DNA from: Isoetes taiwanensis | Taxonomy: Eukaryota > Streptophyta > Lycopodiopsida > Isoetales > Isoetaceae | Assembly (NCBI GenBank): GCA_021234155.1 | Contig: JAJEKV010000136.1 | Span: forward strand, 868,001 to 932,000 | Length of the DNA stretch: 64,000 bases | Direction of reading: 5' to 3' | Shown: positions 561 through 64,000 of the stretch, piece by piece | Layout of the letters: each line of letters opens with the position of its first letter | How positions within the stretch are numbered: position 1 is the first letter of the stretch | Made by a program: the position numbers and the translations under genes | The notes under the pieces: generated by a model | What the model saw: the letters and a program-made list of their open reading frames with translations, nothing else | Databases searched by the model: none | Told to the model about the DNA's origin: nothing

Positions 561-599
561 GAAAATCTCTAGCAATTGGATCTGTTCAGTTGCATTAAG

Positions 600-1810: not shown

Positions 1811-1971
1811 ACCTGGCATTCCATGATCCTATATCAGGCAGCAGAACAAAAGCTTTAAGTTGTAGAATATATAGAAGACGAATACAATTTGGATGTATTT
1901 TTGAGAGGAGCAAAAAGCATAAATTCCCCTGTAACCAAATTTTTATTAAAAGGCAAAGAGAGTGATAGGTC

Positions 1972-2407
1972 ACACATGTGGTTCAAATGCTATTCCAAAA
2001 AGGATATTTGATGTCTTAATATCTCTGTGAGTTATCCGTCTTTAGCACTTCTTGTGAAGATAATGAAGACCACGTGCCACTCCTGCTGCCACCTTAAATC
2101 TGAGATGCCAATTGAATAGCTGTGCATTAGGACCTGGAATAGTATGTTAAAGCTATGCCCAGAAAATATACAATTACAAATTACCAGCTGCAGCTGCGCA
2201 CCGTGAAGAAGACCGGCCATATTCAATGCAAAAACCAAGTAGAGCAGTGGTATTTGGATGAGAAATATGCCCAAGAATTCCAAGCTCTGTCAAAAAGTCT
2301 CTTTCCCCTTGTTCTTCACTATCGCCTTTGCTTTACTGCAATTAACTGGCCATCTGGAAGAGAACCCTTGTAAACTTTTGAATAGCCTTTCTTTCCTACC
2401 AGGTTAT
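1972..2407 (-). pseudogene. RLCK VI / RBK-like protein kinase fragment
   Basis: Read on the minus strand, a good acceptor (TTGCAG at 2,408-2,413) opens a kinase N-lobe with VGKKGYSKVYKG (glycine-rich loop), DGQLIAVK (subdomain II lysine) and TELGILGHISHPNT followed by LLGFCIE (helix C to beta 4). After a decayed stretch it resumes with VAAGVARGLHYLH and THRDIKTSNIL (catalytic loop). The HPNT/LLGFCIE wording is typical of plant receptor-like cytoplasmic kinases of group VI, such as the ROP-binding RBK1/RBK2. At least two frameshifts and in-frame stops (for example after VKQRR and before THRD), and the loss of a recognisable DFG and C-lobe, make it a pseudogene. A Helitron-like 5' end lies upstream near 3,070, so capture by a transposon is possible. 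Confidence 0.75.
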
Positions 2408-2849
2408 CTGCAATAAGACAAGTAATTGTTATGCTTCACATAAGGATCTCAACATTTGAAGCAAGTACCTTCCCAATCAACCCACAGGGCACTGAAGCCT
2501 GCTTCTGATAGTCTTGAACACGGCTTTTGCTTGGCCTTAGATCTACTGCCAGACATGATGAAGAAATGAGATATTGAAGGGAAACTCTTGGCACATTAAG
2601 CAAACTGTTGGAGCAACGACCTTCTGATGAAAGACGGTTCATTCAAATCGGTGGAAGCACGTAACAAAAAAAAAATGATTTGCAAGAAATGGTCTGCTCT
2701 GAACAAAGTAGCAATATAGCCACCGAATGACCTACACTATGCAGTCGGCACAAAACAACACGAAGAACTGAGAGGACTTTGGTCGACAGGATAAGTGCCG
2801 AGATGAATGAGAGGAATGAATACTCTGCTCGCAGTATGAACCGCTCCAT

Positions 2850-3602
2850 GAACCCGAACCCGGGTGCAGCGCTTTCAAACCGCTTTTACCATCGAACATC
2901 GAACGGTGTACAACAAAAATTGTAAAGTCTACAGCAGATAAATCGAAGGGATAAAAATAATTAAAAAAAATTCAACGCGCAAGATTGCTCAAAAAATAAT
3001 TAAAAAAATTCAACGGGCAAGATCGCGCACAAACTATCCTAAAACGCCTTTATTATTATATATAGATAGATGCTAAGAGGATTGCTTTTTCTAAAAACGG
3101 AATCCATTTTTTGTCTCCCAGGATTAAGAAGAAGAAGCTATACGGTAAGCTTAATCTGGAGTAGTTGGTTTAATTTGAAAGTTAAAACCAATGGATCCAA
3201 TTAGTTTGAAAGGTTTTTGAGCTGTTATTATGCTACATATTTGAGCTGTTCTTAGATATTGGACTACAGAACATATGTCAGTATCCAGGTTCAGTATCCA
3301 GGTTCAGACAGAGCCAAGATACATTTGAAGCTTCAGGTCGCATGGGTCCAAGATACATTTGCTTCTTGACTTTTCGGGCCTTCTCTATTCCATGTTATTT
3401 GATAATCATACTTATATTGAAGCTACTTCTAAGACCTTGAAAAAGGCCGGTATCTCTATGCCCAATTCCAACGATTCACAATCTTATATCCATGGTATTG
3501 GATGTTGGCAAGTAGCTATGCTGGAAATGCAACATAACAGATGGATATGGGATGATCCTTGTCTGTCTGTGAAAATGCGTTCTTTATTCTTGGGCAATGC
3601 CA
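2850..3602. other. No gene recognised
   Basis: Apart from the AT-rich motif near 3,050 nothing is recognisable. A 98-codon open frame at 3,359-3,655 on the plus strand has no family resemblance and runs into the palindrome arm. Confidence 0.4.
3040..3075 (-). mobile_element. Possible Helitron 5' terminus
   Basis: On the minus strand the sequence starts TCTATCTATATATAATAA and continues into AAGGCGTTTT. This resembles the TC-initiated, AT-rich 5' ends of many plant Helitrons. No matching 3' hairpin plus CTRR was found downstream on the minus strand within the window, so the call rests on one end only. Confidence 0.3.
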
Positions 3603-5175
3603 TCACTGTATCTTCCATCCAATATAATCATTTTCAGGTTGTTTTGAAGCATTAGTATAGCAGCTGCAAACATGCACATTACATGTAGCAAAATGTAGAG
3701 TTGTGTGGTTTTCTTTATTGGTTTTTATTATTCTATCATAGTGTAGATCATTTCTCTAGGCTATAACTACCATACAAGCTAGTAAGCCTGGGATGATGCC
3801 TCTGTTTTGCGGACTTGGTTAGAGTTGGAACATAAACTATTATGGATTTTTGCCACAGGGATTTTCAAATAGGTCTTCCAAGAGATTTTAATATTCTCAC
3901 AGCTCCAATGACAAGGATGATGCTCTCAAGAGATTTTGATGAATATGGCCCACCAATATTATGGGCAGCATGCCTATTAGCGTTTTCACTATTGCATCAA
4001 TCAATATTATCACAATCTTACATTGCTACAATATTCAAGTATCATGGTTTTTATTTCTTTTTGTTATTTTAAATTCCTAAATAAATAGGTATCAATAAAA
4101 TGTTTCTAATTGTGTCAATAGTATCATTACAAATGTTTTTTACTTCGTTCATCAATTCTTAAGGCCCCGAAGGGGCCAAAATTTTTTTGGGTTAACACAC
4201 AAACCATTACATTAATCACTCTAAAATTAAATCCCCCTTGAAACCCCCTGTGGTTTGGGTGCATATTCACACGGGGGTTTACGTAGGGCAGCGAGAGCCC
4301 CAAAACAATTACAATACATGTACAAAATTAACACCATTATGTACATTCTCTCAAACTTTATAGTATTTTGCAAACCTTAATATACAGTATACAAAAACTT
4401 GTACATGCATACCCCACAAACGAGGATCGCTATGTACGGTCCAGATCTTGGAATAAAGGGCAAATATGCCCATCCAACAGCTCTCGTTGCCCGAAGTAAC
4501 CCCCCGTGTGAATATGCACCCAAACCACAGGGGGTTTCAAGGGGGATTTAATTTTAGAGTGATTAATGTAATGGTTTGTGTGTTAACCCAAAAAAATTTT
4601 GGCCCCTTCGGGGCCTTAAGAATTGATGAACGAAGTAAAAAACATTTGTAATGATACTATTGACACAATTAGAAACATTTTATTGATACCTATTTATTTA
4701 GGAATTTAAAATAACAAAAAGAAATAAAAACCATGATACTTGAATATTGTAGCAATGTAAGATTGTGATAATATTGATTGATGCAATAGTGAAAACGCTA
4801 ATAGGCATGCTGCCCATAATATTGGTGGGCCATATTCATCAAAATCTCTTGAGAGCATCATCCTTGTCATTGGAGCTGTGAGAATATTAAAATCTCTTGG
4901 AAGACCTATTTGAAAATCCCTGTGGCAAAAATCCATAATAGTTTATGTTCCAACTCTAACCAAGTCCGCAAAACAGAGGCATCATCCCAGGCTTACTAGC
5001 TTGTATGGTAGTTATAGCCTAGAGAAATGATCTACACTATGATAGAATAATAAAAACCAATAAAGAAAACCACACAACTCTACATTTTGCTGCATGTAAT
5101 GTGCATGTTTGCAGCTGCTATACTAATGCTTCAAAACAACCTGAAAATGATTATATTGGATGGAAGATACAGTGA
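3603..5175. repeat. 1.57-kb near-perfect palindrome
   Basis: Left arm 3,603-4,278 and right arm 4,499-5,175 are inverted copies of about 675 bp, essentially identical by eye; one substitution was spotted (T at the TGTAGCAAAA site against C in the other arm). A non-palindromic core of about 220 bp separates them, and weaker inverted similarity runs a further 20 bp inward. Each arm encodes the same 76-codon open frame (3,842-4,072 plus; 4,706-4,936 minus), with no known family. The inner part of each arm plus the core is a repeat that recurs at 15,979-16,363. High arm identity means a recent inverted duplication or an assembly fold-back artefact. Confidence 0.9.
4163..4622. mobile_element. Undescribed inverted-end repeat, copy 1
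   Basis: The ends read AAGGCCCCGAAGGGGCC then AAAATTTTTTT, and the mirrored form closes the other side. Further in, both sides carry GGTTTGGGTGCATATTCAC followed by a G-run and a GGGC..CGAGAG block, again inverted. The core (4,300-4,490) is about 93% identical by eye to 16,150-16,340. Long inverted ends with a unique centre suggest a non-autonomous DNA element, but no clean target duplication could be assigned because the palindrome extends beyond it. Confidence 0.55.
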
Positions 5176-6822
5176 ATGTGATTCCGATTCAAAAAGATGC
5201 TTTAACATCCAAAGAATCTATGTTCAGAAGTCAGACGCAAGAAAATATACAGAAGACCTCCAAATTTGCAATCCTAACCAAATCAAAACTTGGTCAATAT
5301 CCCTGGCAGCAAGCTAAAATTTGCAGATGAAAAAATACACAACCTTTTTTCACTTTTGACATTGTGTATAACTCTAACAGGCCTGAAAACAATGTGCATC
5401 AACTTTTTTGACAAAAATTCATGCTCAGATGGTCAGAAACCTTGTTTTTTTTTAGCAAAAAGACTGTTTTGATGCAAGAACTAACAAGAAAATTTTTGCA
5501 GAACATGCAAATGATGTCTTTTTTTAGTTTTGATACTTCCTATGATCTCTGACAGGCCTGACATGAAGTGCATCCAGTGTTTTTTCAAAAAATGTTAACT
5601 TGCCCTCGGAGATTAATTTTTCACATGAATGCTATCATGAATGATAAAACAGATTGAATTCCATGTTCTGTGTTCATTTTTGAAGTAATTTTGAGTTTTT
5701 TTAATAGAGTACTAGGCAAACTATCTGTTAATAAGTGCACAACTGTGAGATGACCAATTTTCAATGCTCATTCTTGTTTCTAAACTGATCCAATGATTGT
5801 GCTAAATTCTCTAATGCTTCCTTTTTTTTTTGCTTTTTTCTGATACTATGCTTCTTAAATACTTAAATGTGGTTATGCAGACTTCTGAAAGGAAACTGCT
5901 GTAGCTGGCAAGGTAGCCACAGAATGTTGCCTTGGATTTATGATGTTATACCACTGCAATCATAAAAGTTAATATTATATCATTTTGTAACGTAGTCCAT
6001 GTAACGTTTGCTGCGCTCTGCAGTCTACTACATTTGGCCCACCCTGCATTTTAAATGTTAAACTTGTTTTAGGATAATAGTCATGCCGGAGCTAAGGGGA
6101 GCTTATGGAACGGGGGCGAGAACTTGATATAGGTATATTTGTTACTATTGCCATATTGTTTGCCTTCAAGAATGTTTTGTACAAAGCCAATGCTCAAGGA
6201 TTCTTCTTCCCTCTATGCACTCTTTTATCATAACAAAATTCATCTGAGAAGGGTTTCTCAAGAGAAACATATGTGATGCATTATTGTGATAAATTGAAAT
6301 TGCTAATATCCATACATCTGGAGGAAATGAATCTGAATCTTTTTCATCTTTAGCTGAAGGATTATGTAAGAAATTGGAAAATAGAAAATGGTAGCAATTC
6401 TAATTGTCCTTATTTACGCTGCTTGGTCCATAAATTATGGTATGTGGCTAATTGCTATACCATACTGTATAAAAGAAATTTTATTCTGACTAAATAGAAA
6501 TTTGGATTGTTACATGAACACCATTCGTTGTGTTGACATCCATTGCTAGATTGTTGTTGATTTAAATCCCTTTGAGGGAACACAGAGGTTTAGGGATAAA
6601 TGGAGCCAAATGGGTACTCAAGTATAAGAGATTCCAGAAACAAGTGGAGAAATGGCCAGATGATATTGAAGTGTTTCTGGCTATTGTTTTGTTTGATTTA
6701 CAAGTTCATCTTTACTTTTTAAATGATGTTGATAGTTCTATAGTGGTGTTCTTTTTGTTTTTGTTTTGTTGTTTCAATTTTGTGAGTGTTTTATGTGAGA
6801 TAATGATTTCATTTTGTTGTAG
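5176..6822. other. AT-rich, no gene recognised
   Basis: Poly-T and poly-A runs dominate. An open frame at 6,572-6,847 (plus) starts REHRGLGINGAKWVLKYK and has a coding-like feel, but no family was recognised. No repeat boundary was found. Confidence 0.35.
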
Positions 6823-6908
6823 ATTTTGGATAATGTCGAGGCATTAATAAACAACATGCTACAAAGGAGAGAAACTACATTGTTTGATTAGGGACTTCAT
6901 TTACTGAG
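6823..6908 (+). pseudogene. Exon-like segment of unidentified gene
   Basis: The segment lies between a TTGTTGTAG acceptor and a GAG|GTATGC donor. It reads ILDNVEALINNMLQRRETT then LFD, one TAG stop, then GLHLLR. The splice sites and residue composition suggest a true exon carrying one nonsense mutation. No family was recognised; it may belong with the segments at 8,718, 10,202 and 10,341. Confidence 0.35.
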
Positions 6909-8717
6909 GTATGCAAAATCAACCCTTTTAATTTGAGATTATTCGGTATGGCCGAAAACGTTTTTGGAATTTTTTAAGATTGATTTTCTAAGGTATAAGG
7001 ATTTTTCGCAGCCGGAAATAATTCCCGATATTCCAAAAATCGAAGAACTTTTGCCCGTATCATTTTTTTGATTTTGGATTTCGTTTGGCACCGCCCTTAT
7101 ATCCAGTCGAGAGGTTATAGTACTATATGGATGCCATGCAAAATTCACATGCATCTGGGCTTCACGGTGGAGCAAAGGTATGTTGCGATTTCTTATTGCA
7201 TCGGTGTAAATGTTGTTGCTCCTTGATGACGTTAATTCCTATTCTTCTTTAGCCGGCTGGTTATACTGTAAGATTAAGTTTTTTTTATCTTCTGTCATGC
7301 AAGTGGATGCATTTCACAGTAAAGCTTGGTTCTGGCATCGGATCCTTCTGTTCTGGAAGCATACGTCCAAGTTTGGTTTATTGATAATCGTCTTACGTTA
7401 TAACAGGTCGTAGCACCTTCTGGATTCTTAGGCCTGATTCCTTTTCATTTTTTATTTATTCGCAGATGGCTGTGCCAGATTTATGGTTTGCTGGATCAAT
7501 AGTAAAACTATAATGCATTTCTCAAACAATCCAAGCTGTTAAGCAAAGGATCAGTCTTATGCACTAGAAGTAATAGGGATATTGTTTAGGTCATCCCTTT
7601 AATCTGGTGCAGGCCTGAAGGTTGCCGTAAAAGTGCAGGCAGGGTCTGCTCTTTAATCATAATCTACCTGGTAAGGTTTTTTTTTTTAACTCTTATGCTC
7701 TGTTCTAGAATCAGGAAACCGTGCTTGCTTTATGTCATGTAATAGCTTCTAGGTTCTTAAATATTGTGGTTGCACATCCGGGGATGATTCTGGAAGGCAG
7801 TTGTGTCTTTATCTTCAAGTCCTTCTATTGTCCGACTCTTAAAATTACTCTGCTTGGATTTGTAGAAATAGATTTGTGCCTTAATTTTGATTGCAAGAGG
7901 TTGAAGAGGCTGACGAATAGACCCAAACAAGGTATCAGTCTTTATACATTATTAAGAGTTGTAGAGATGTTGTTTATTCTTCTGTCAAAGGTCTATTTTA
8001 GCTGAAGTATGCAATTTGATTCTCATACATAGTGCTATGATCTTTACAAATATGGATTCAGAGTGGAGATCTGCTATGTCTTAAAGGGTATGTCTTCTTT
8101 ATACATTCGTGCTTTATGCCTTTTATATATTTGTGCTTTAGTTATACATTTGTTGCTACCATTTTGCAACTACAATATATTACTTGGCTCCACAGGTAAA
8201 ATAATGTAATGGTCATTGTGGACATGCGTGCATTTTATATCTTTCATGCCATATAATTTTGGCCTGACATAATGTAAGCATGCCCTTGACACAAGCCTGA
8301 GATATGACTCAAATTCTTGCAAGGCATTGGGGATGGGCCTAATTGGTTCCTCATATTTTTGTACTTTCTGTTAAAAGACTTTGGCCAATCCAATGTTGTG
8401 GATGCAGTTCACATGATGCAATGCAATGCATAGTTTGGATGTTCTTATACACAAGTTTATGATTTGTATAGAATTGCTTTGGGACTGTTGGTGCAAATCA
8501 GACTTTTAGGTATTGTATAATTGGATTGTTGATAGCAAATTTATCAGACCATGAATCTTTTGGAGACTTTCAACTTTTGGAGGCTAAAGTGACTACCTAC
8601 CTAAAGATCTGATGATGATTTTCTTGAATACTGTGTCATTGCTCTAATAATATGCAGTGATTGAGCTATAAATCTGACGTTTTTGTGGGTCCTTTCGACC
8701 AAGCAGTGCCTATGCAG

Positions 8718-35033: not shown

Positions 35034-38000
35034 TCATAAAAGAGAGGTTACTCCAAGTGTGTCTCGATGATTTTGGAAGACCTCTTTACATAGTGGTTTA
35101 GTAAGAAGATCTGCAGGCATTTCATCTGTTGGGAGATACTCCATATGGATGCTGCGATCCATCACCTTCTCTCTTGTGTAGTGATGATGGATGGAGATAT
35201 GTTTAGAGCGCCGATGATGGATTGGATTTTCTGTAAGAGCAATGCTGCTCCGATTGTCATTGTATACTATGGTGGGTTCCATTTGTATGTACCCCAATTC
35301 AGCAAGGAATTGGCGAAGCCATACTGTTTCTCTGACCACAGCCGATGTTGCCATATATTCTGCTTCGCACGAAGACAAAGCTACAGAGGTTTGCTTTGAA
35401 CTTGTCCATGTGACGCTGCCTCCATGCAACATTACAGAGAAACCTGTAGTAGACCTATTCTTGTCCACATCACCAGCCCAATCCGAGTCTACAAATGATA
35501 CTAATCTGACTGCTGGATAATTAGAATCTGGACCATACCGAATTCCCATGCTAGAAGTGCCGTGGAGATATCTCATGATTCTTTTGACTGCTTTCCAATG
35601 CTCTAACCCTGGATTTTGCATGAAACGACTGGCTGCTCCTACTGCCTGTGCAATATCTGGCCTTGTACTGACCATTATGTGCATAAGGCATCCAATTGCG
35701 CTCCTGTAGGGGATATCTCTCATTTCTGCTTGTTCATCATCTGATTTGGGCTCCATTTGCTTAGATAGCTTAATATTCATTGCAGCCGGAGTATCCTTTG
35801 GGCTGCATTCTGTCATACCAAACCGATGACAGACTCGACGAATTGCTGATGCCTGATGGATCAGAATTGTGCGATTCATCCTATCTCTTTTCACTTGGAG
35901 TCCAAGGCAGGTGTGGATCTCACCCAAATCAGTCATACGAAATTCTTTTTGCAATGCTAGCTTCAATGAATTAATATCGTTTAAGCCTTGTCCAACCATA
36001 ATCAAATCATCAACGTACACTACTATTATGAGGATTTTACCATGTTCCTTTTTCGTGTAGACGTTCCATTCCGTTTGACATCTCTTGAATCCCAATTGCT
36101 GGAGAAAGGTATCAATTCTGAAATACCATGTGCGTGGACTCTGTTTTAAACCATAAAGTGCTCTTCTCAGCCTACATACTTGTCCGCCTGGGAGTTGAAA
36201 GCCTTCGGGCTGACGCATATAGATTTCTTCCTCTAGATTACCATTCAGAAATGCAGTTTTCACATCCATCTGGTGGATCTCTAAGTCTTCCTGGGCAGCA
36301 AGGGCTAGGATGACGCGGATAGATGTTGCTTTTGCTACTGGTGAGAAGGTTTCATCGAAATTGATTCCTGGAAGTTGGGAGAAACCTTTAGCAACTAAGC
36401 GAGCTCGAAACTTATCAATAGAACCATCTTGAGCTCGTTTGATCTTAAAAACCCATCTGCATCCTATGGCTTTCCTTCCTTTGGGCAGGGAGACTAGATC
36501 CCAAGCATGTGTTAAGTACATAGCATCCATCTCATCCTGCATAGCAAGTTTCCATTGCTCAGAAAATTCACCTGTTAGAGCTTCCTGGACTGTTATGGGT
36601 TCAGTAAGTTCAGCTACAAAGCTTTCCAACACGCATCTCTCTTCAAGATCATGGACCCACCACTGCTGGTATGTACGCTCTAGGAGCATCTCCTGACAAA
36701 GAGCTTCAGCAATATGGGCTGAACTCTTCCATTGACGCCATCGTTCAGTGGGTTTATGCCCCCTTAGACTTCTCCGAGGCTGTGGGATCTGTTCAGTGGT
36801 TGCAGGCTGCTGCTCCTGGGTGCTTGGTATGACGCATTCGCGTGGCTCCGCATGGACAGAGGGTACTGAGACTTTCAATGGTGAAGTGCTATCCATTGGA
36901 CCATCAGATGGGACAATGGGCTGCTGCAGAGGCACGACATGGCTGCTGGTCAGATCTAACCATAAGACTGAGGTGTTGGGCTCCTGATACAATGAGTCAT
37001 CTGCATGTTGTTTGAACAAGCTGGTTTCTCCCATCCATTGTTCATCAAATTTTACATGTTGACTTCGAATAATCTTTCTGGTAGTAGCGTCTACTAGCCT
37101 GTAACCTTTACTTTCTTTGCAATGTCCAACAAAGAGACACCGCCTTGATTTGGGGGCCAGCTTGTTGTCTCTTATTTTAGCAGGAACAAGGGCATACGCT
37201 GGGCATCCAAAAATTCTGAGGTGGCTGATATCTGGTCTGCAACCTGTCCATACTTCTTCGGGTGTTCTACCTGGAACTGCTACAGTTGGGGCCCTATTCT
37301 GGACATAGGCAGCAGTAAGGATTGCCTCGCCCCAAAAAATATCAGAGAGCCCGGAAAAACGGAGCATACTCAGTGCACACTCCTTGAGAGTCCTAATCTT
37401 TCGTTCCGCTACCCCATTCTGATGATGATCATAAGGTAAGGAGAGATGCCGTTTAATGCCAGCATCTTTCAAGCACTGATCAAAGGCCTTGTTGGTGAAT
37501 TCAGTCCCATTATCACTTCGAAAGGTACGGATTTGTTTGCATGTCTCTCTTTCCACTTCATTTTTCCAGGTTACAGAATGGCCCAAGACTTCCTTGGTGC
37601 TCTTCATGAGGTACACAAAGATTTTTCGGGAAAAATCATCAACAAATAGAAGAAAATACAAGGCATGACCAAGGGACTTAACTGGTGCTGGTCCGCTGAT
37701 ATCTGAGTGTACCAGTTGCAGCAGCTCGGTGGCACGGGTGCCCTTGCGTTTGATTTTCTTTTCCTTGTGCTGTTTCCCAAGGAGACAGCCTTCGCATATG
37801 TGTAAATTGTCTTCTAAGTTGATATTCATGCCATGAACCATATTATCATGTTGAAGCTTCTTCAGTCTGGTTTCATTGATGTGGCCAAGACGCCGGTGCC
37901 ATAATATAAGGTCAGGTTCCCCAAGGGTGGCTACCAATGCATGCCCTGTGTGTTTCTCTTCTTCCAAGAACTTATATAGAAAACCGTCCCTGTATCCTTT

Positions 38001-39536
38001 GCCGATTACATCCCGTGAAGAGTTGAGCAGCAAAGTCTCTTTCTTGAGAATGAGAGCATAAGCTCCAACATCTGCTAGTCTGGAGAGAGAGAGGAGGTTT
38101 CTGGGCAGACCAGGGACATATAATACTCTTGTGAGAGTGCGACAAGAGTCTAGGAGATGCAAAGAAATAGACCCTGTGCCAACCACGCGAAGACCCGAAG
38201 CAATGCCATTGACAAATCTTTCTTGTGCCATCTCTTGGAAATCAGTTAACCAATGTTTCTGATTTGTCATAAGGTGAGTGGCTGCTGAATCCATCACCCA
38301 AATTCTATCTGAGCCAGTACCAATCACTTCGAATGCTTCAATATCTGCAACCAACGCTTTGGGGTTGCAGCGAATTTCCTCCATATCCGTATCAACACAA
38401 AATGCTTTGGGGCTGCAACGAATTCCCTCCATATCCGCATCAACACAATAATGTTCATGCACTTGCACTTCCTGATTCCATCGCTCCTTCAAAAAGGATT
38501 CAAAAGTACCAACGTGACTGACCTTCAATTGGGATTGCACTGCAGGTTGGATGGGGGCAAGGTATGCCATATTGCCTTCAGCATCACTGTAGCCATCCTC
38601 ATTCTCAGAATCTGAGGATTCTTGTTCAGCCACATGAGCACTTGGCCGCGACTCTCTACGGTTACTCCAACGTCTTGGGGCAGAGTGAGACACAGACTTT
38701 GTGTCTTTCTCCCGTGAATCACTGTGCTTCCCCTTATCTTCTAAAGATGAAGGCTTACCCAATGGTTTTCTTTTTTCTTTCTTGTCTGCTCCTTTCTTTT
38801 TATTACAATTTCTGGATATGTGACCTTTCTTGCCGCATGTCCAGCACTCTAGGTCCTTCCTGTTGGATCTAGTCTGGGCAAGATAAGCAGATTCTTCATC
38901 TTCTCTAATTCTCAAGGTCGAAGCCTGCAAGACACCGCCAATTACTGTTTCGCTCCTCAATCTTCCCTCTTGACACCCCATAGTTTGCTTCAGAGAATCA
39001 TACGAGGCTGGAAGACTGGCCAAAATGGCCATGGCGAGATCTTCATCACTAATGACATGTTGCAGTGCTGCCAACTGATCTGCAAGACCCTCCATTTTGC
39101 TGATATGATCTGTTGGATCATCATCCTCATTCATCTTGGCAGAGAAGAATTTCTGCCATAAAAATAACTTCTGAGAAGTGTTGTGTGTCTTAAAGGTTCT
39201 CATAAGACACTCCCATCCTTCCTTGGCTGTACTTTTCAGTCTAACCAGAGGAATTTGGCCATCCTTGAGGCCAAACATCATAGAGGTTTTAGCTCTATTG
39301 TCTTTCATTTTCCAGCTGGCCAGGAGCGATTGATCTGCAGTTGATGCTACTACAGATCCTGGATTTTCCACACTGCCACTGGCTACATCAGAGATTTGTG
39401 GTTTTGGAAACTCTCCACTCACCACATCCCATACATCCCGCTCCTCCAGTATTGCCTGCATTCTCCAGAACCACACCGTTGCATTGGTGCGATCTAATTT
39501 CTCCAGGTGTTTCAGATCCATCTGAATGTGAGACAT
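35034..39536 (-). CDS. Copia gag-pol polyprotein
   Basis: The frame is open from 39,638 (inside the LTR); I place the start at the ATG at 39,536 (MSHIQMDL..), residue 35 of that frame, because the earlier part is LTR and primer-site sequence. Numbering by the longer frame: Gag with knuckle CWTCGKKGHISRNC (265-278); protease DSAAT at 450 (DSG/A active site); integrase HHCC H581, H585, C615, C618 and D645, D709, E745; reverse transcriptase about 1,020-1,240 with YVDD at 1,208; RNase H D1384, E1427, D1461. The length is normal for copia. The polyprotein is processed into particle, protease, integrase and RT-RNase H. An unusual 16-residue tandem duplication sits at 398-429, between Gag and protease. 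Confidence 0.96.
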   Translation of the reverse strand: MSHIQMDLKHLEKLDRTNATVWFWRMQAILEERDVWDVVSGEFPKPQISDVASGSVENPGSVVASTADQSLLASWKMKDNRAKTSMMFGLKDGQIPLVRLKSTAKEGWECLMRTFKTHNTSQKLFLWQKFFSAKMNEDDDPTDHISKMEGLADQLAALQHVISDEDLAMAILASLPASYDSLKQTMGCQEGRLRSETVIGGVLQASTLRIREDEESAYLAQTRSNRKDLECWTCGKKGHISRNCNKKKGADKKEKRKPLGKPSSLEDKGKHSDSREKDTKSVSHSAPRRWSNRRESRPSAHVAEQESSDSENEDGYSDAEGNMAYLAPIQPAVQSQLKVSHVGTFESFLKERWNQEVQVHEHYCVDADMEGIRCSPKAFCVDTDMEEIRCNPKALVADIEAFEVIGTGSDRIWVMDSAATHLMTNQKHWLTDFQEMAQERFVNGIASGLRVVGTGSISLHLLDSCRTLTRVLYVPGLPRNLLSLSRLADVGAYALILKKETLLLNSSRDVIGKGYRDGFLYKFLEEEKHTGHALVATLGEPDLILWHRRLGHINETRLKKLQHDNMVHGMNINLEDNLHICEGCLLGKQHKEKKIKRKGTRATELLQLVHSDISGPAPVKSLGHALYFLLFVDDFSRKIFVYLMKSTKEVLGHSVTWKNEVERETCKQIRTFRSDNGTEFTNKAFDQCLKDAGIKRHLSLPYDHHQNGVAERKIRTLKECALSMLRFSGLSDIFWGEAILTAAYVQNRAPTVAVPGRTPEEVWTGCRPDISHLRIFGCPAYALVPAKIRDNKLAPKSRRCLFVGHCKESKGYRLVDATTRKIIRSQHVKFDEQWMGETSLFKQHADDSLYQEPNTSVLWLDLTSSHVVPLQQPIVPSDGPMDSTSPLKVSVPSVHAEPRECVIPSTQEQQPATTEQIPQPRRSLRGHKPTERWRQWKSSAHIAEALCQEMLLERTYQQWWVHDLEERCVLESFVAELTEPITVQEALTGEFSEQWKLAMQDEMDAMYLTHAWDLVSLPKGRKAIGCRWVFKIKRAQDGSIDKFRARLVAKGFSQLPGINFDETFSPVAKATSIRVILALAAQEDLEIHQMDVKTAFLNGNLEEEIYMRQPEGFQLPGGQVCRLRRALYGLKQSPRTWYFRIDTFLQQLGFKRCQTEWNVYTKKEHGKILIIVVYVDDLIMVGQGLNDINSLKLALQKEFRMTDLGEIHTCLGLQVKRDRMNRTILIHQASAIRRVCHRFGMTECSPKDTPAAMNIKLSKQMEPKSDDEQAEMRDIPYRSAIGCLMHIMVSTRPDIAQAVGAASRFMQNPGLEHWKAVKRIMRYLHGTSSMGIRYGPDSNYPAVRLVSFVDSDWAGDVDKNRSTTGFSVMLHGGSVTWTSSKQTSVALSSCEAEYMATSAVVRETVWLRQFLAELGYIQMEPTIVYNDNRSSIALTENPIHHRRSKHISIHHHYTREKVMDRSIHMEYLPTDEMPADLLTKPLCKEVFQNHRDTLGVTSLL

Positions 39537-39615
39537 AATTCTCGGGTATGCCACACGTACACCAAATTCCACGATCTTCCGTTTACCACAGCCTTTCAAC
39601 GAGGCTCTGATACCA

Positions 39616-39784
39616 TGAAAAGAAAATAGGCGCTTCAAGGATCCAAGAACAAGAAGATGCCTCCTTCAACGGGAGGTTCAATATTAATAGATCTTCCATA
39701 TATAGACAAAAAGGAAGATATTATGAACAAAGAATCTAACTACTTTTTGTTACAGACTATTATGAGCAGAAACGTATCTCAACA
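39616..39784 (-). repeat. Copia 5' LTR
   Basis: Same 169-bp sequence as the 3' LTR. On the minus strand it is followed at once by the tRNA primer site. Confidence 0.97.
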
Positions 39785-49261: not shown

Positions 49262-50449
49262 CATGGAATAAATTACTACTCCTATATTTTAGTGTAGCCA
49301 AAATAGGTTAAGCTAAACTACCTTCAAATTGGGGCTAGAAGTTTCTAACACTTGGCTAAATGAAATGGTTTTTCTCCATCACAGTTTCTTGCTTTTGGCT
49401 AAACTTTCACAAAATGGAAAGGCAAATATTAGCCATCACGCTATAATGCATTAGGGATTTTTTGAGATCATAAAAGGGCCTTCTAAGAACTGCTGACTAA
49501 GCTGTATGAACTACCAATCAGCAGTTATAACTGACTCACTGGATCACATTTTCTAGCACAAGTATTGATAGAAAAGTCCAAATGAGCTTTTGTTTGGTGC
49601 AATAGATAGATCTCATTGAGATCTTTCCAAGCTTGGGTGGTTTGCATATCTTTTAGCCCCCTAGGATAGTAAAAAATGGTAAAAACCATATTTTTTGGAG
49701 TTTTGACAATCATAAGTAGTTAAAATATGTGCAAAGCACCTAAGGTTAGAAAGATCTCAACGATATCTATCTATTGCACTAAACGAAAGCTCATTTGGAC
49801 TTTTCTATCAATAGTTATGCTAGAAAATGTGATCCAGTGAGTTAGTTATAACAGTTTTGCTGACTGGACCTGTCAGGCTCTGATTTCTGATTGGTGGTTC
49901 ATTTAGCTTCATTTGGCTTAGTTGGCATGTTTTGAAGGCCCTTTTTTAATCTCAAAAAAACCCTAATGGATTTAAAAAAATCCAAGCATTCTGGCAAAGA
50001 CATTGAATTTATTGTAAGTACATAAATCAAGACACGAACATATATGAACATGCTCAAAAACCTAAAAGAAAAGGGCACAACTTTGTTCCTTTTCCTCTAA
50101 TGCTTTAAATTTGTACTTGGAACGAGAAAGAAAGGGAAACAAAAACAAGAAACATAATCTCTATTTGAAATTTCTTAAAGTTAGTACATAAATTGGTGTT
50201 GAATTTCGGGCTAATCTATCCATTTTTCCAAGCCCACTCTATCTTAGGTTTAGCTAATCAATGTCCCGATGGATATGTCTGGAGGTAAAGGTTTGGCTAT
50301 TCAACCTAAAAACTCACTTGGACGGCAAAAAAATTGGGCTAAAATTTTCTTTTTTTTGGGCATTTTTTCCATTTACTTTAGCCGTTTTTCTTGGCAAAAC
50401 TGCTACAAAATAGCCATTTGGCTAATCTTAGCCGTTATTTTATTCCATG
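49262..50449. mobile_element. hAT-like non-autonomous element, 1,188 bp
   Basis: The ends are CATGGAATAAATTACT and the mirror TTATTTTATTCCATG. A perfect 8-bp target duplication AAGGGAGT flanks it (49,254-49,261 and 50,450-50,457), the length expected for hAT. The terminal 150 bp carry repeated GCTAAA/TTTAGC words shared with the element at 63,376-63,978. No transposase was seen, so an autonomous partner elsewhere is required. Confidence 0.88.
49521..49860. repeat. Fold-back nested in hAT-like element
   Basis: Arms at about 49,521-49,645 and 49,741-49,858 are inverted copies at roughly 88% identity. Shared words include ACTCACTGGATCACATTTTC and GAAAAGTCCAAATGAGCTTT. It may be a second MITE inserted in the first. 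Confidence 0.75.
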
Positions 50450-50457
50450 AAGGGAGT

Positions 50458-56622: not shown

Positions 56623-57285
56623 CTACATGCTTTCGAAGCAATTCGCGGTCATGCCAACATTGACAATACACCACGTCCTAGAGAACACGAAGGTGATCTC
56701 ATCATCGGTAACTATTGTTAACCACGATGCATCTACCCCTCTACTATATGATTCTCGGCGAATGAAGCCTTCAAGCTTACCGCCGGGTGCGGGGTTGATA
56801 GCATCGTTGATGGTGCGGCCCTGAGATTCCCGCATGAAGTCTGGATAGTGCTTCTCAAGGTCTATCTTCATCACCCAAGTAACATCCGCAACTGGTAAAT
56901 GCTTCCACTTAAGCAAGTATTGCAGCATTTGAGTCCTTCTGGTCTGCTTATAAGCTCGATCAAGAAGAGATTCAGGCACTATATCTAAATGCTCTTCTGT
57001 CATTTCAAGGAGGGTGGGTGTATCCAAGATCTCCTCTGGATCTGGGGTATGTTGCTTCAGAAGACTCACGTGAAAGACCTTGTGGATCTTCAAGCGGGGT
57101 GGCAAATCCAAGCGATATGCCTGTTCTCCAACACGTTCAATGATCTTGAACGGCCCAGCCCATCTGGGTGCCAGCTTCTTGCAGTTACCAATCTTAAGCT
57201 TGGCTTGTTTAACCTTAATCTTGAGCCAAACCGATTCGCCCACCTGGAAGACTCGTGGGGTCCGGAGTAAGGCATTGATAACCAT
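56623..57285 (-). pseudogene. Chromovirus integrase tail and chromodomain
   Basis: The 220-residue frame opens FQVGESVWLKIKVKQAKLK and has the GPF/Y module (APRWAGPFKIIERVGEQAYR, residues 39-58), then HKVFHVSLLKQH. A chromodomain follows near 95-150 (EHLDIVPESLLDRAYKQTRR and YLLKWKHLPVADVTWV). In chromoviruses this tail steers integration by reading histone marks. The start is artificial: the upstream integrase core is cut off by the truncation at 57,285. Confidence 0.88.
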
Positions 57286-57668
57286 AATTTATCATGAAGA
57301 ACAAGATTGCGTATTAAACGGGAGCAAATCATCGAAACGAGAGCAAAAGGAATATTCCTCAAAGATTCCCCTTTTTTTATAAAAGGGGGTAAAACGAGGT
57401 AAAAAAAAGATGCATGAAATTCTATTTTGACCCCCCTCCAAATGACTAATTTTTTTGTGCAACGAAAGAATTGACTTTTTTAAAGTGTCACTTTTCTTAG
57501 CAAGTAGAATGTTCTTGAAGTATATTTTACAAGAGAAACTCTAATTTCAGAGGATAAAATATTTAACAAAAAATTGAAGTAAGTCTGTAACTGAAACTGT
57601 AGTATTCTCAAAATTTGAAGATAGAATCTTCATATTCACATGCAAAATTTACAGTCTTTTTCTAAGAC
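57286..57668. other. No gene recognised
   Basis: AT-rich junction between the truncated gypsy element and the DUF7869 pseudogene. No TIR or target duplication could be identified here. Confidence 0.4.
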
Positions 57669-60600
57669 TCAGTTATGTACAAAAGTGTGAGGAGTGACGA
57701 GAGAGGGATCCAGGACGTCATCATGTTCATTTATGCCATCCTCATCACCTTCACTTCTTTCACTGTCACTAGAGGAAGTGCTTGAGTTATCTTCCTCATC
57801 ACTATCAACAGATGGTGAAGCATTGCCACCACCTTCTTCATCCTCTTCTTCGTAATTACAAGCTTTTTTAAGCAAATTGATAGTCCTCTGGCGTAGACGA
57901 TTGTCAGATTTCAATTTAAAATCATAGCACAATATAGTTACGTCATTAAGGTTCAGCTCATCCCTACAACCCACCTTCTTGGACTTTCTCCCTTTTCCTT
58001 GGCTTCTCATTTCTAACTCATATCTACCTTCAAAAGCATTTTCTGAGCGTGTTGCAAGCCAATGAATCTTGAGTTTAGTGACTAAGCCTTCATCCTTGAC
58101 TGTGTCAAGCACTTTTGCTATCCAGAAAGGTCGACCTTTGTCATCCTCCTCAGTTGGAAGAGCAATTAGCATACCCTTGGTAATTTACGTGATATTACCT
58201 TGAGGCTCATTCCCGCCTCTTGTCCGAGGTACATGACTCGATCCTCGTCTTCTTCTATGCGGTGCTAATGTAGCATTGCTTGGACCTCGCTTTGGTGCTT
58301 TGGGGTTGATGGAAGGTGTTAGGCCATTGAAATGGTTCTTGCAGCTGTCTTAGAGCTATATTTTGCACAACAATTTTCTGTTCGAGAAAGAAATTACTCC
58401 ACCACATCTGATCTTCTTCTAAGAAGTACTTAAAGCCTGAGGAAATTCCATTTTCAATGGCTTTTAAGGATGACTTGGGTACTTTTCTTACCTTGGACTC
58501 CTTAGGATTTTTGAGAGGAAGTTGCTCAGCACGTTCTATGAAGGAAGTGTCTGGAATATATTTAAGGAAGCGTAATCCCTCTGGTGGACTCCAGTCCTTA
58601 GTTGTGGTATACTTCTTCCCCTGTAAGAAGCTTTGGCCATCCTTCAAGTAGAACTTGATGTGATGTTGAAAGGTGAGATCATTCAACTTGTTCACAGTTC
58701 TCTGTCTGAACGTTGAGAGAAAATAAACTCTCTGAAATCAGCAGTCTCTTTAAGAAGATCGATCACTGGAGTGGGAGTGTAAGAATCTTCAATAATTCGA
58801 ACTAAAGTAGGAAGAGAGAAAGCCTTCTTCCTTCTGAGGCGCACAGAAAATCTGCTGAACATTTGGTCAATTTGATCATGAGTGTGGCCTACATGTAAGA
58901 AATCGAGCTTCACTTTTCTAAAGATCCCTAGCTCCACTAACATGGCACATTACGCAAAGAGTGTTTGATTCTTGTTCTCCCTTGTAGTATTATTGTCAAG
59001 TTGCAGGTAAAGCACTGGTGGTCACCATGCAAGTTTGGATATGTCAAAAATACTTTGCACTTTAGACTTCCTTTGAAGACCATAGCTCCTACAAGGTGGA
59101 CCTTAACAAAACATTCCTCTGGCACATCTTTAGGAATGTTCAAGAAATGCGGTAGAGTAGTTTTTGTTTGGTCCATTCCATCAATCACAACAGACATATA
59201 TTGCAGTGGACGTTCAAGAGCTTTTTTTCTGTGTTTGGCAAGCTTTCTTCTCTCTGCTGCTTGTTGTTCACGATGTCTGGCAAGGTTCTGTTGCACAATA
59301 TCTGTGGAAGAAATCAGGTCAAAGCATTTTCTTTAAAACAAGTGAGAGATTGGAGAACATGAGCTTACTTCTTTCGACCTCTGTCTTTGCAGTTTCTCGT
59401 TGACTCTTTAATTCTGCACACCTTGAACAAACAGACATTCTATGTCTCCTGGGAATTTTCACTAAACCGAATTCACTTTTCCACAGTCTGGTGAAGTGTG
59501 AGTAAGAGATGTGCTGAAGCTGAGTGCAAGTCTCTTTGTACTCATTAAAAACATCTTTTTTGGTCATGTTATCAGTTAAATGATACATGTTGCTGTTAGG
59601 CAGCTTCTCACATGTTTCTCTAAAATATTTCTCCATCTATGACACAGCAGCAAGGGCATGCATGGTTACAACTCTTCTTGGTCTACAATGATCATCAATT
59701 GCTGGATTTTTGTCCAGTCTTTTGTGTATTCTAGACATTCTGGTGGACCCTAAATGGTGGACAACCATAAAGCATTTCTGGCAAACTTCTTGTCGGTTAA
59801 TGTAGTGCAAGAAGGTGTTGCGGTCTGGTCTTACATGATAGGCCAAGTAGGCATTCTGGTCATCCAATGTCATTGAACTGTAATTGTCTCTAATTGCTCG
59901 TAATTTAGACATGTTAAATTTGTTGATGCAACCCAATGAGTAACATTTACTTCTTAAAAGTCTTCTCATTTTATGCTCGTCCATAAGGTTTCTTCTTCTT
60001 ATAGAGAAGCATGCTCTCAAACCATAATCCACCTTGAATTTCTTGGTGGACTGGCTAGAGAATGTGTAATCTCGTTGCACTTCGTTGGTGTCTTCATCTT
60101 TCAAGAGAGTTCTACTCCGGGGTGACCTCCCTCTACCCTTAGTGGTGTGCTTGTAGAGGAGAACAAACCACGTGAAGCTGTACCCGGATAAGGCGGAGGT
60201 ACAGTGTTGAATGAAGGAGATGGGCCACCATATGATGTGCCAGCGAAAGTTGTTGTAGCTTCTTCATAAGGAGTTCGTTCAAACATGTCTCTTATAGCGC
60301 ATGAAATTACGCAAACCCATGTGTCACCACCGGTTGTGTGAAGAGGAGTAGATGTTGCAAGGTCGTCTTCATTTGTAGTGAGATCGTGGTGGGAGAAGCT
60401 ATAGTGAATCTCGCATCTTGAGCGTCTTTGTATTCTGGTATGTGTAAGTGAAGATGGAGAAACAACAAAGGGTTGAGGTAGTCTGTTTCGAAAAATTTTC
60501 TGAGGTCGAGCCATTGTAGTGTCGGGGGATGGTACAAATGGTGGTGGAAGATTGCTACGTGCAACAGGTGAGGCTTTGAAAGGAGGTGGCAGCCGGTTTC

Positions 60601-60808
60601 CTACTGGACTTGGAGAGGGTTGGAAAGGTGGTGGCAATCTACTAGTTACTGGACTCGGAGTGTCTTCGAGAAGCAACAAAGACCTTGTCGAGGTAGATGT
60701 TGAAGAAGCATCTCCGTCTTGTGTTCCATCTGAAGTAGAGGTACTTGGGCAAACAAATGGTGGTGGAAGTTTGTTCACGAAGCGGTTAACCATGTTAAAC
60801 AACTGCAA
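57669..60808 (-). pseudogene. DUF7869-type protein, candidate RNase H-fold nuclease
   Basis: Minus-strand blocks in order: a proline-rich N-terminus with five LPPPFxxSP-type repeats (60,770-60,470); a Cys-containing region (EVCQKCFMVVHHLGSTRMSR); HRMSVCSRCAELKSQRETAK; a GT-AG intron (59,302-59,368); then a basic helix and VVIDGMDQTKTTLPHF (59,180), LQLDNNTTRENKN (58,985) and LDFLHVGHTHDQIDQMFSRF (58,880); and a C-terminal PFWIAKVLDTV/KLKIHWLATRS part like a BAH/SH3-type module, with an acidic tail. IDGMDQ, LDN..ENKN and GHTHDxIDxxFS are, from memory, the DUF7869 signature. They are spaced like the acidic residues of an RNase H-fold DDE enzyme (inference). Lesions: frameshift near 60,110, TAG at 59,637, TAA in LFA*CAM, frameshifts near 59,000, 58,700 and 58,200. 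Confidence 0.72.
59302..59368 (-). other. Spliceosomal intron in DUF7869 gene
   Basis: On the minus strand the donor AA|GTAAGC and acceptor TTCCACAG|AT bound a 67-bp intron. Its removal joins KTEVER to IVQQNLARHREQQ in one frame. It shows the gene was a normal nuclear gene. Confidence 0.75.
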
Positions 60809-61634
60809 AAAATTGTGGACTTGTTACTAACTCACAAGTCGATTGGACTAATGATATTCGAGAATACAAATGCTATTCCGGAATAGTATTTTGTGTGCAG
60901 CATTTGCTGTGTGTGTGCAAAGATGCTATTCCAGAATACACTTCAGAGTGTTTGGACAAGACGTATTCCGCATCACATAGAAAGACACAACTGACAGTGG
61001 CCTACCTTTAAAAAGGAAAATTGAGCGCCTCAGTTGCGTATTCCGCTTCCAGAGATTTAGTCGCCAGCCCGAGCGCCTTCCGATCTATATTGATTTGCTG
61101 TATTCCGATTTACATAGCGAAAATAATGGACAGGTAAGCATGTAAAGTACATAGTACGTCTTTCGTGTGTTTCCTGATTTGCTTTTGTAGGCCAAAGTGT
61201 ATTCCAGAATACACTTTATACACTTTGCTCACTGGCGAAGTGCAAAGTGTATTCCGGAATACACTTTGCACTACGCCTGAAGGGCAAAGTGTATTCCGGA
61301 ATACTTTGCACTTCGCCTGATGGGCAAAGTGTATTCTGGAATACACTTTGCACTTCGCCAGTGAGCAACAGAATACACTTTGCTTGTCTTCTTGAAAACA
61401 CTTGTTTTTTTGCACTTAAACATACCACTTTTTAGCTGAAACAGACCACTTTTTAGGTTAAACATACCACTTTTTAGTCCAATTAAGGCATAAAAAATTG
61501 AGTTAGAGTGACAATATGTTTGCTTGTTTTCATGTCTTTTGCTGGCCTTTAGGGCACAAGATTAGTAAATCTTATTCTGGAATACAGCTTCCGTCCCATT
61601 TTCTGTCTTAACATTGTTGTTTTTAACGTTTCAG
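60809..61634. promoter_or_regulatory. Divergent intergenic region with palindrome cluster
   Basis: The palindrome GTATTCCGGAATAC or a one-base variant occurs at 60,855 (TATTCGAGAATA), 60,873, 60,927, 61,199, 61,249, 61,291, 61,331 and 61,573. Half-sites GTATTCCG lie near 60,963, 61,038, 61,100 and 61,370. Another full copy is in the plus-gene intron at 63,030. It sits exactly between the two divergent start regions, so it could serve as shared promoter operators, a partition-like centromere, or transposase-binding sites. No function is shown by sequence alone. Confidence 0.75.
61228..61370. repeat. Nested cruciform array
   Basis: A perfect 34-bp palindrome is centred at 61,255/61,256 (half-arm AGTGCAAAGTGTATTCC). 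Flanking words GCTCACTGGCGAAGTGC and the mirror GCACTTCGCCAGTGAGC place the whole 140 bp in one larger inverted repeat, holding three copies of the 14-bp core. Confidence 0.9.
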
Positions 61635-63317
61635 TGGCAGGGAGGAAGGAAGCAAAAAAGCACCCAAAAAAATCTCTGAAGCTTAGGCGCCCACACCCTC
61701 AGAAGCACACCGCTAACACGGACGAGCCTGCGATATACGAAAACTTTCAAACGCAATGGTTCGTAACCAGGGGTGCAGACGGAAAATACAACACACTGAC
61801 GTTTCTGTACGTCTGTAAGAGAGCTGGGAACAAAAGGTACGCCGACACCGAGTTCGTTAACCTTGGAACAATAAAAGAGGTCTCAGAGGTTGCCGGACAA
61901 GGAGGTCAGGTGGGGAGGCTATCCTTCAAGACCTCCCAAGGGTTCATTATTGTAGACATCGCATTCTTTAGAATTGTCAGTGTGCAACCACAGGCATTGT
62001 ACAAATTCTTTTCACACTACCGGACAAAACGAAGCCTGTGTTCACTAATTAGACAGGTTTGTTCTAGTACAAGCGAGGACTTTCCTGTCAGTGGGTCCGA
62101 GCAATCAGATGGAGGTAGATCAGGATCATCACCTTCTCCTAGTACTTCAGGGAGGTCATCAGATGGAGGGTCCCAAGAACAAGAAGAGGAAGTTCCCCCA
62201 GTGCCGCCAAAGAAACTTAGCAGGCCAAGAGCCACCATAGCCGCTAAGGAACCAAAGAAGCGGAAGGTACAGCAGCTTGAAGTTGCAGAAATCCCCGAGG
62301 AACAACCGAAAACGAAGAAGGGAAAGGGCAAGGCACCTAGGGTGGCCATTAAAGAAAAAAAGGTGGACAAGACCTCAGAGAGGATGGAAGTAATTAATCA
62401 GAACAAGTATGTGCAAGGTGTAATATACTTGCCAGTAACTTCCATGAGATTGCCACCGAAGAATGAAGATGGTGAGCGCCCCCTTCAGGTTCGCAAAATC
62501 TATGCTGACCACTTAAGAATTCTGAAGGACAGAATAAGGAGCAATCCCAATGCCCATGTTGCTCCAATTGTTGTTCTTGTTGACAGATCCCAGTGCATGG
62601 ACCCCTACGACAGAGAAAAAACAGACATCTACATGCACTATGTCCTTGGGGGGGAAACCACAGTTTCAAAGCAAGGAGGCAGTTGTACAAGGAGAAACAC
62701 AATCCAAGATATCTCTCTGTGCTCTGCGCTGTTTACTGTGGCCTAATAGACGAAGAAGCCAAAATCGTTGCCAACGCGCACAATGCTGACAACGAATACA
62801 AGCTTAAAATGAGTTTCGTGGACAAAATCAGGTTCATGCACAGGGAATATGTTATATTTAAAGAAAAATATGGAGATGATTTAAAGAAACCACAATACTC
62901 TCTGGAACTGAAGGAAGCGTGTGCTGTGGAGTGCTGCCTCAAATACGACGAGGCTAACAAACGGCAGTCTCTAATACCACATGACAACTGGTTCCAACTA
63001 GCCTTCAGAGACGGCAGAGTAAGTTTCTTGTATTCTGGAATACCCCTGCAACCCTCCCACTGACATCGCTTTTTTCTCTGCAGATTTGGGACCTCCAAAA
63101 CGAAATCTTCACCATGTTCGAGCGTGGTGATTTGAAAAGCAAAGGAAAGGTCTCCGAAAAGAAAAAAGGATCCGACGCCCCCAAAAAGGAAATGACAATA
63201 ACTGTCTGGCGAGAAATGCAGGGCTTCACAGATATGGATATACTAGAAAGGCTACTGCAAAAGGTTGTTGATAAGGAATTTACACTAGAAGAAATGTCCA
63301 AGGAGCTCTACAAGTAA
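61635..63317 (+). pseudogene. ParB/sulfiredoxin-like domain protein
   Basis: The frame opens at an acceptor (GTTTCAG|TGGCAGG), not at an ATG; an upstream exon is required (ATGGACAG|GTAAGC at 61,128-61,135 is one candidate, but its phase does not fit). Parts: a basic N-terminus; a globular region with TQWFVTRGADGKYNTLTFLY; a Ser/Pro and Lys-rich linker (AKEPKKRKVQ, likely nuclear localisation); then VRKIYADHLRILKDRI, HVAPIVVLVD, YVLGGNHSFKA and IVANAHNADNEYKL. The last four match the order of the ParB N-terminal fold: PI.V, then a GG/GERR-like turn followed by A, then a (E/A)N.xN box. After a 65-bp intron (63,019-63,083) the protein ends in an acidic/helical tail (KELYK). One lesion: a run of seven G at 62,648 puts the GGNH motif out of frame. 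ParB homology is by motif only. Confidence 0.6.
63019..63083 (+). other. Intron holding a 14-bp palindrome
   Basis: GCAGA|GTAAGT and TCTCTGCAG|ATT bound 65 bp, and splicing joins DGR to IWDLQNEIF in frame. The intron contains GTATTCTGGAATAC at 63,030-63,043, the same site as the intergenic cluster. Confidence 0.8.
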
Positions 63318-63375
63318 GAATGCCACTTTGGATTTTTTGTTTGATAGGAAGAAGTGTTTTCCGAAATACACTGTG

Positions 63376-63978
63376 CAGGGAATAAATTACTAATCGCATA
63401 TTTCTTATTAGCTAAAATGACTTTAGCTAAACTTGCTCGATTTTAATCCCAAAACTTTCTGTGGTTTAGCTAAGCTCTACATATTTTTCCTCTTATACTT
63501 TCTAGCGTTTAGCTAAACTAACCTAAATATCATCCCAAAAATTTCTATGGTATGGCCAAAGAAAATATTAAGCCAAATCATTATACTTCATTTCAATTGT
63601 TTCCACTTATCTTAGTCATTTTCTTCGTGAAAATATCCTAAAATAATGCTAATTAGCAAAGTCTAGGACCCAAATTAATTCATAATGTTGGAAACTAAAC
63701 TATTAATCATATATTTCTTATAGACTAGAATGATGTTAGCTAAACTAGCCTGAAGTTCATTCTTAAAGTTTCTATGGTTTAGCTAAACAATACCAAATTT
63801 CACTCTCTTACTTTCTAGCGTTTGGCTAAAGAGCTCCAGGGTTGGCGCAGTCCCGAAAAAAGTTAAGCTAAAATTATTATTTTTTTCCCAATTTTTTCCA
63901 TTTACTTTAGCCAATTTTTTTCGAAAATGTGCTAAAAAATCGCCAAATAGCTAAGTTTAGCCCTTAAATTATTCCATG
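63376..63978. mobile_element. Dimeric hAT-like MITE, 603 bp
   Basis: The outer ends CAGGGAATAAATTACT and the mirror TTAAATTATTCCATG are flanked by the perfect 8-bp duplication ACACTGTG (63,368-63,375; 63,979-63,986). Inside are two diverged head-to-tail copies (63,376-63,687 and 63,688-63,978), each with GCTAAA-rich ends. Same family as 49,262-50,449. It lies about 60 bp past the stop codon of the ParB-like gene. Confidence 0.85.
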
Positions 63979-64000
63979 ACACTGTGGCTCACACACGAAA

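Follow-up and report, generated by a model that had tools for sequence, protein, structure and literature searches.

A decayed, probably Sola-type DNA transposon pairing a DUF7869 gene with a ParB-like gene in Isoetes taiwanensis

Introduction

In a 64,000-nt stretch of the Isoetes taiwanensis genome (the window), a gene with a DUF7869 domain and a gene with ParB-like motifs diverge from a common spacer. A preliminary description took the pair for a two-gene mobile element or a partition-like system, which raises the question of what kind of element these genes form. DNA transposons of the Sola type have DDD transposases, generate 4-bp duplications, are mostly 2–9 kb long, and occur in moss while being uncommon in flowering plants, according to the available text of PMC10741241; 4-bp duplications are likewise given for Sola2 in the available part of PMC3627910.

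Results

The two genes were correctly described as a divergent pair on the minus and plus strand, with their 5′ ends facing a palindrome-bearing spacer (Table 1). From this geometry, the spacer would contain divergent promoters. The element starts at 57300, outside the originally proposed span of 57669..63317, and runs past 64000. The open frame of the plus gene stops at a splice donor (63314), so that 63317 is not the end of this gene. The left flank matched the Pfam families SH3_Tf2-1 (1.3e-22), Integrase_p58_C (8.5e-8), and Chromo (4.4e-6). The region around the element is repeat-rich and contains nested elements.

Table 1. Features of the element and its left flank in the window.
Feature	Position	Strand	Remarks
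Transposon copy	57300..64000	.	Left terminus 57300; right terminus beyond the window
Terminal sequence AACAAGATTGCG...	57300..57361	+	Inner GGAATATTCC at 57349-57358
Degenerate DUF7869 gene (likely transposase)	57669..60793	-	PF25273 match; frames compared to P0001/P0002
C-terminal region homologous to BAH-like domain of P0002 (residues 726-842)	57864..58202	-	
RNase-H-like DDD core (IDGMDQ, LDN..ENKN, GHTHDQID)	58692..59230	-	Fold model of relative P0002, not of the window copy
Intron of DUF7869 gene, GTAAGC...CCACAG	59302..59368	-	
Shared spacer between DUF7869 and ParB-like genes, palindrome cluster	60794..61633	.	
Palindrome array CAAAGTGTATTCYRGAATACACTTTG	61187..61368	.	Repeats D3-D6 and I1-I6
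Tandem array inside spacer	61218-61359		
ParB-like part of putative ParB-methyltransferase gene	61634..63313	+	Frameshift at G run 62648-62654
Intron of ParB-like part, GTAAGT...CTGCAG	63019..63083	+	
Splice donor GTAAGA, end of ParB-like open frame	63314..63319	+	Same place as L003 exon 1/2 donor
Nested 603-bp MITE, in presumed intron	63376..63978	.	
8-bp duplications flanking the MITE, ACACTGTG	63368-63375 and 63979-63986		
Left flank, Ty3-type integrase C-terminus and chromodomain	56623..57279	-	Cut short near element edge

Within the minus gene, the single unbroken piece at 58692-58949 matched DUF7869 in Pfam with E = 7.9e-25 (88 bits), and the read-through translation matched PF25273 with E = 7e-38 and 130.6 bits, far exceeding the curated family threshold (26 bits). 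The acidic set noted earlier (IDGMDQ, LDNNTTRENKN, and GHTHDQID) is present in full, and the model of P0002, a relative of the window copy, shows an RNase-H-like fold and conserves three acidic residues, the hallmarks of a DDD/E transposase. DUF7869 is therefore likely to be the catalytic core of a transposase. The window gene itself is broken by in-frame stops and frameshifts and lacks ~18 core residues relative to P0001. As the reading frame of the plus gene is interrupted as well, at a G run, both genes are broken, and the window element is thus a dead, decayed copy.

We identified 94 homologues of the DUF7869 protein, the named hosts of which are a liverwort, two ferns, a green alga, amphioxus, and a coral; the nearest named relatives of the window protein come from one fern and one liverwort. 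In a tree with 34 rows, comprising the window, four of the fern copies described below, and 29 of the 95 database proteins, the window grouped with P0001 (support 100/99), whereas the fern copies grouped with Ceratopteris P0005 as well as P0002-P0004, P0006, and P0009 (100/100), inside a clade in which all members with names are land plants (99/98); the tool issued a long-branch warning for this tree.

The protein of the plus gene had no Pfam match at E ≤ 10 and matched the ParB profiles of NCBIfam (E = 0.052) and PHROG (E = 0.17) weakly. None of the fern copies tried against these profiles (three in one test, two in another) gave a match, and hhalign, using single sequences, failed to align the ParB-like part to either P1 ParB or a ParB-family protein from a plasmid. 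Because these results are negative and the other matches weak, we refer to the product as ParB-like only: the ParB motif strings reported before are present and accompanied by weak profile matches, but a ParB profile match proper was not obtained. At the place of the box-II arginine, which serves NTP binding in ParB proteins, we found GGSHS, GGNHS, or GGQHL by eye, in an uncertain alignment to ParB. The sole database relative, P0095 from the nemertean Lineus longissimus, was one among 70 candidates retrieved with search words concentrated on residues 300-430 (E = 1e-6, calculated for 5.8 billion database sequences; 23% over 313 columns in pairwise comparison). A search with words distributed across residues 255-539 yielded 1469 candidates, none of which reached E ≤ 0.001. 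Searches of PDB sequences with the ParB-like part returned calcium-channel beta-3 (E = 1.2 and 1.3), and those with a two-row alignment returned a collagen adhesin (E = 7.9e-4, composed of two 10-bit repeats) as well as calcium-channel chains (0.13 or worse), all of which were taken as chance; an eight-row alignment gave no match. At the DNA level, positions 58000-63400 did not match phages, and tblastn scans of viral contigs with the DUF7869 and ParB-like proteins revealed no relative. A candidate upstream first exon with an ATG at 61126 has a mismatched splice phase and is tentative for this reason, and the intron of the ParB-like part is absent from five fern copies, where this part forms one exon.

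Further loci were obtained by scanning prokaryote genome contigs with a 25-sequence alignment, resulting in 12 loci (L001-L012), the first eight of which all belong to one 'uncultured Trichormus' bin. Trichormus azollae, a name present in the taxonomy, is the cyanobiont of the fern Azolla. Given the GT-AG introns and the Ty3-type gene found on these contigs, we infer that L001-L008 represent Azolla nuclear DNA. The ParB-like gene was located divergently upstream of DUF7869 in all five fern loci with room for it (L002, L003, L005, L006, and L008; tblastn 4e-50 to 7e-56), and the contigs of L001, L004, and L007 stop within the spacer. For L009-L012, which stem from other lineages, tblastn detected no ParB-like gene ('par' E-values of 4 and 8.9 only); this says little, because their contigs are short, with 0.07-3.3 kb available upstream of the match.

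The ParB-like exon of L003 (4239-2597, minus strand) is followed by the METHYLTRANSFERASE part, which comprises four exons with GT-AG introns. The spliced protein is unbroken (960 aa), matches the N6/N4 DNA methyltransferase profile PF01555 (2.3e-16; 60.8 bits at a cut-off of 26.7), and retains the methyltransferase motifs IADIPYG and DLFSGTGTTLA. Its best PDB sequence match was CcrM (2.9e-8), and it shares its catalytic domain with CcrM and other site-specific methylases of bacteria (as low as 5e-14 for plasmid methylases), whose usual motif IV is DPPY, whereas the fern protein has DIPY. In general, DPPY is the adenine-type form of motif IV and SPPY an alternative; as DIPY is closer to the former, N6-adenine rather than N4-cytosine is our first guess for the methylated base. 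Methyltransferase exons matching those of L003 were found at all five loci with flank, of which only L003 is observed in full and without breaks. The contigs of L005 and L006 end beyond motif IV, the frame of L002 is broken in exon 3, and L008 carries a stop in exon 5 and no longer has the ParB N-terminus. Among seven single exons compared with PF01555, the motif-I exons of L002 and L008 passed, and five motif-IV exons fell below the cut-off. When the fern protein was compared with 50,697 phage records by tblastn, 260 matched, none over more than 80% of the query, and the best 20 of the 260 all lay on the methyltransferase part. In the window, the plus frame ends with AA directly before the donor GTAAGA (63314), matching the position of the exon 1/2 donor in L003, so that a methyltransferase part, if present, is presumed to lie past 64000.

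The reported richness of the spacer in palindromes was confirmed. TATTCCGGAATA, allowing up to two mismatches, matched 10 times in 64 kb, all within 60855-63368, compared to a mean of 2.67 and a maximum of 7 in 100 shuffles (0 of 100 reaching 10), for a pattern picked after the repeats had been seen. A different palindrome is present in the fern copies: its core TCGATGC..GCATCGA (≤ 2 changes), likewise picked after the repeats had been seen and with no chance expectation computed for its counts, occurs 3-15 times in seven of eight copies, always in the spacer or its on-contig part. L008, the spacer of which is gone, has one core match, inside the ParB-like gene. As the tree separates the window from the fern copies, the DUF7869/ParB-like pairing is seen in two separate clades, that of the window being represented by this one locus, and the palindrome sequence has changed between them. 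Furthermore, the window contains a single GGAATATTCC, which is also present in five of the eight fern loci (L002-L006), near the DUF7869-side end.

To place the left end, AA-starts on both strands were scored against seven fern right ends. Position 57300 had the best score (360) among 12,780 starts, followed by the overlapping 57297 (307) and the next unrelated start (291), the maximum of 1000 shuffles being 248; an early guess of 57280 was replaced accordingly. Inverted terminal repeats were not recognised within the window, because the right end lies outside it. The L003 element (391-8114; 7,724 bp) has imperfect inverted ends starting with AACACG (33 columns, 79% identity) and AACA on both sides, giving a target duplication readable as 4 or 6 bp (TAACAA). 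Joining its flanks restored an uninterrupted 360-aa frame, the right part of which contains H2C2 and an rve integrase, and the left 129 aa of which had no Pfam match. We read this frame as Ty3-type pol; computationally, the element sits inserted in a Ty3-type gene. Both ends are also present in L002 (7,805 bp) and L008 (6,044 bp), but no target duplication was found there, so that such a duplication, looked for at three loci, was seen at one.

Selection was analyzed for the four of eight copies with an open DUF7869 frame (L002, L003, L005, and L006, the latter two from stop to stop). The dN/dS values of DUF7869 were 0.09-0.13 in all six pairs. For the ParB exon of the same copies, dN/dS was 0.089 in the sole unsaturated pair, and the other five of six pairs showed pN/pS values of 0.20-0.27 with saturated pS. 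One pair of methyltransferase exons, L003 and the broken L008, yielded a pN/pS of 0.15, pS again being saturated; together with the motifs retained in L003, this suggests that methyltransferase catalysis is under selection.

Discussion

We consider it quite probable that the window element is a decayed cut-and-paste DNA transposon, probably of the Sola type, in which a DDD transposase is combined with a ParB-like methyltransferase, and which would methylate itself. The DUF7869 protein would cut at AACA-type terminal repeats, and its C-terminal BAH-like domain may steer it to chromatin. The product of the second gene would join a ParB-like module for palindrome binding to a DNA methyltransferase acting on N6-adenine (or N4-cytosine). 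This fusion protein would bind at the palindrome array that separates the divergent promoters and methylate the element's own DNA. This methylation could control both promoters and the timing of transposition, or serve as a mark against host silencing.

Whether the element belongs to Sola is a separate matter, and a transposon superfamily of their own for the DUF7869 elements is an option that we take seriously without favoring it. The likeness to Sola is one of description, and the sole target duplication may be 4 or 6 bp long. However, the DDD core, a 4-bp duplication, the size, and the presence in seedless plants agree with how Sola is described in the available text of PMC10741241, and Sola1-1_Ec32 from Ectocarpus has the same kind of partner, a ParB-like gene with an N4/N6 DNA methyltransferase on the strand opposite the transposase (PMC12477816, available part). 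Like the window and fern element, it is thus a DNA transposon with this accessory gene, but it is 21.5 kb long and resides in a brown alga, and the available part of that account mentions neither palindrome arrays nor a BAH-like domain or DUF7869.

It is unlikely, in our view, that the ParB-methyltransferase is mainly a second transposition protein, which shapes the DNA complex or represses the transposase promoter, so that host-read methylation matters little. CACTA elements, two-protein systems with one regulatory DNA-binding partner, provide a precedent. Binding to the palindromes, the core of which lies between the divergent genes in seven of eight fern copies, and perhaps to the terminal GGAATATTCC just inside the DUF7869-side end (five of eight fern loci and the window) would agree with such a role, as does the broken methyltransferase part in two of three complete copies. 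The intact catalytic motifs of L003 and the low, albeit saturated, ratio of the exon pair argue against it. For the self-methylating transposon, a more specific course, in which a ParB-type clamp loads at the array as at parS, spreads over the element, and lays down N6-methyladenine, while the BAH-like domain guides the transposase to chromatin, appears doubtful at present. If true, the transposon would have its own mark, not read by the host's 5-methylcytosine silencing, and the chromatin selected here would be that of Ty3-type elements.

The preliminary alternatives fared differently. The mobile element is supported by the repeated pairing, the ends, and the target duplication of L003. A ParABS-type, partition-like system for maintaining or segregating the element, which the ParB-like motifs and the clustering of palindromes might suggest, is very improbable, since complete L003 shows two genes only (among ATG frames of at least 90 aa, the one other being an antisense frame of 96 aa within DUF7869), has integrated with duplication of its target, and has its ParB part fused to a methyltransferase. 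We give hardly any credence to two unrelated or captured host genes lying side by side by chance in a repeat-rich region with nested elements, which is already contradicted by the same divergent order in five of five fern loci from a separate DUF7869 clade and by the terminal sequence common to the window and the fern copies.

Transposons of this kind are already known from algae. Green and red algal transposons that carry ParB-methyltransferases, like the fern element but in other hosts, are attributed to Iyer 2011 and Petroll 2025 in the available text of PMC12477816, where Petroll 2025 is also cited for giant EnSpm elements of red algae, i.e., another transposase class. A survey of the ParB fold describes ParB-N6_N4 fusions as more frequent in phages and sulfiredoxin as the commonest eukaryotic member (PMC12704722, in part); the phage and prophage proteins have the same domain fusion as the fern protein but belong to prokaryotic viruses, and the available text mentions neither a transposase nor a palindromic spacer. 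DNA transposons with a DNA-modifying enzyme are also found in fungi, where encoded TET/JBP dioxygenases were proposed to allow escape from silencing; in contrast to the addition of N6/N4 methyl groups, these remove 5-methylcytosine (PMC12730594, available part). Among CC-licensed PMC papers, our search found no mention of DUF7869 and none combining new superfamily, DNA transposon, BAH domain, and transposase; in the available text of this literature, we met neither an occurrence in land plants nor the assignment of DUF7869, a BAH-like domain, or palindrome arrays.

Our findings extend the algal ParB-methyltransferase transposons to land plants, with low dN/dS in both genes, and provide DUF7869, a widespread unnamed domain, with a likely function. 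The palindrome array is a candidate binding site. Bacterial-type self-methylation by transposons, with N6-methyladenine at defined sites of a plant genome, would be directly testable on intact Azolla copies.

Sequence features of the window and related loci

The palindrome GGAATATTCC, located about 50 bp inward of the DUF7869-side terminus of the decayed transposon, is common to the window and five of the eight fern loci (L002–L006), and represents a possible site for the transposase or the ParB-like protein. Furthermore, a single family of non-autonomous elements is represented twice in the window; its first copy is nested inside the DUF7869/ParB-like transposon and appears hAT-like because of the length of its flanking duplications. 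A long frame resembling a Copia-type polyprotein, as judged by eye, is perhaps a young insertion.

Features in the window
Feature	Position	Strand	Size	Remark
Copia-type-like frame	35034–39665	minus	1543 aa	unbroken
Non-autonomous element, second copy	about 49262–50450			
Palindrome	57349–57358			perfect
Non-autonomous element, first copy	63376–63978		603 bp	8-bp duplications ACACTGTG

In animals, the Branchiostoma protein P0066 combines DUF7869 and a Ulp1-type protease (PF02902, 3.5e-21) in one fusion; accessory domains of other kinds can therefore occur in animal members.

Among the fern loci, L006 carries a second, partial copy of the DUF7869 3' end and part of the terminal region (about 6677–7226). 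At least eight contigs (L001–L008) of the cyanobacterial Trichormus genome bin consist of nuclear DNA of plant type, in which both introns and transposons occur; users of that genome should be warned of this contamination.
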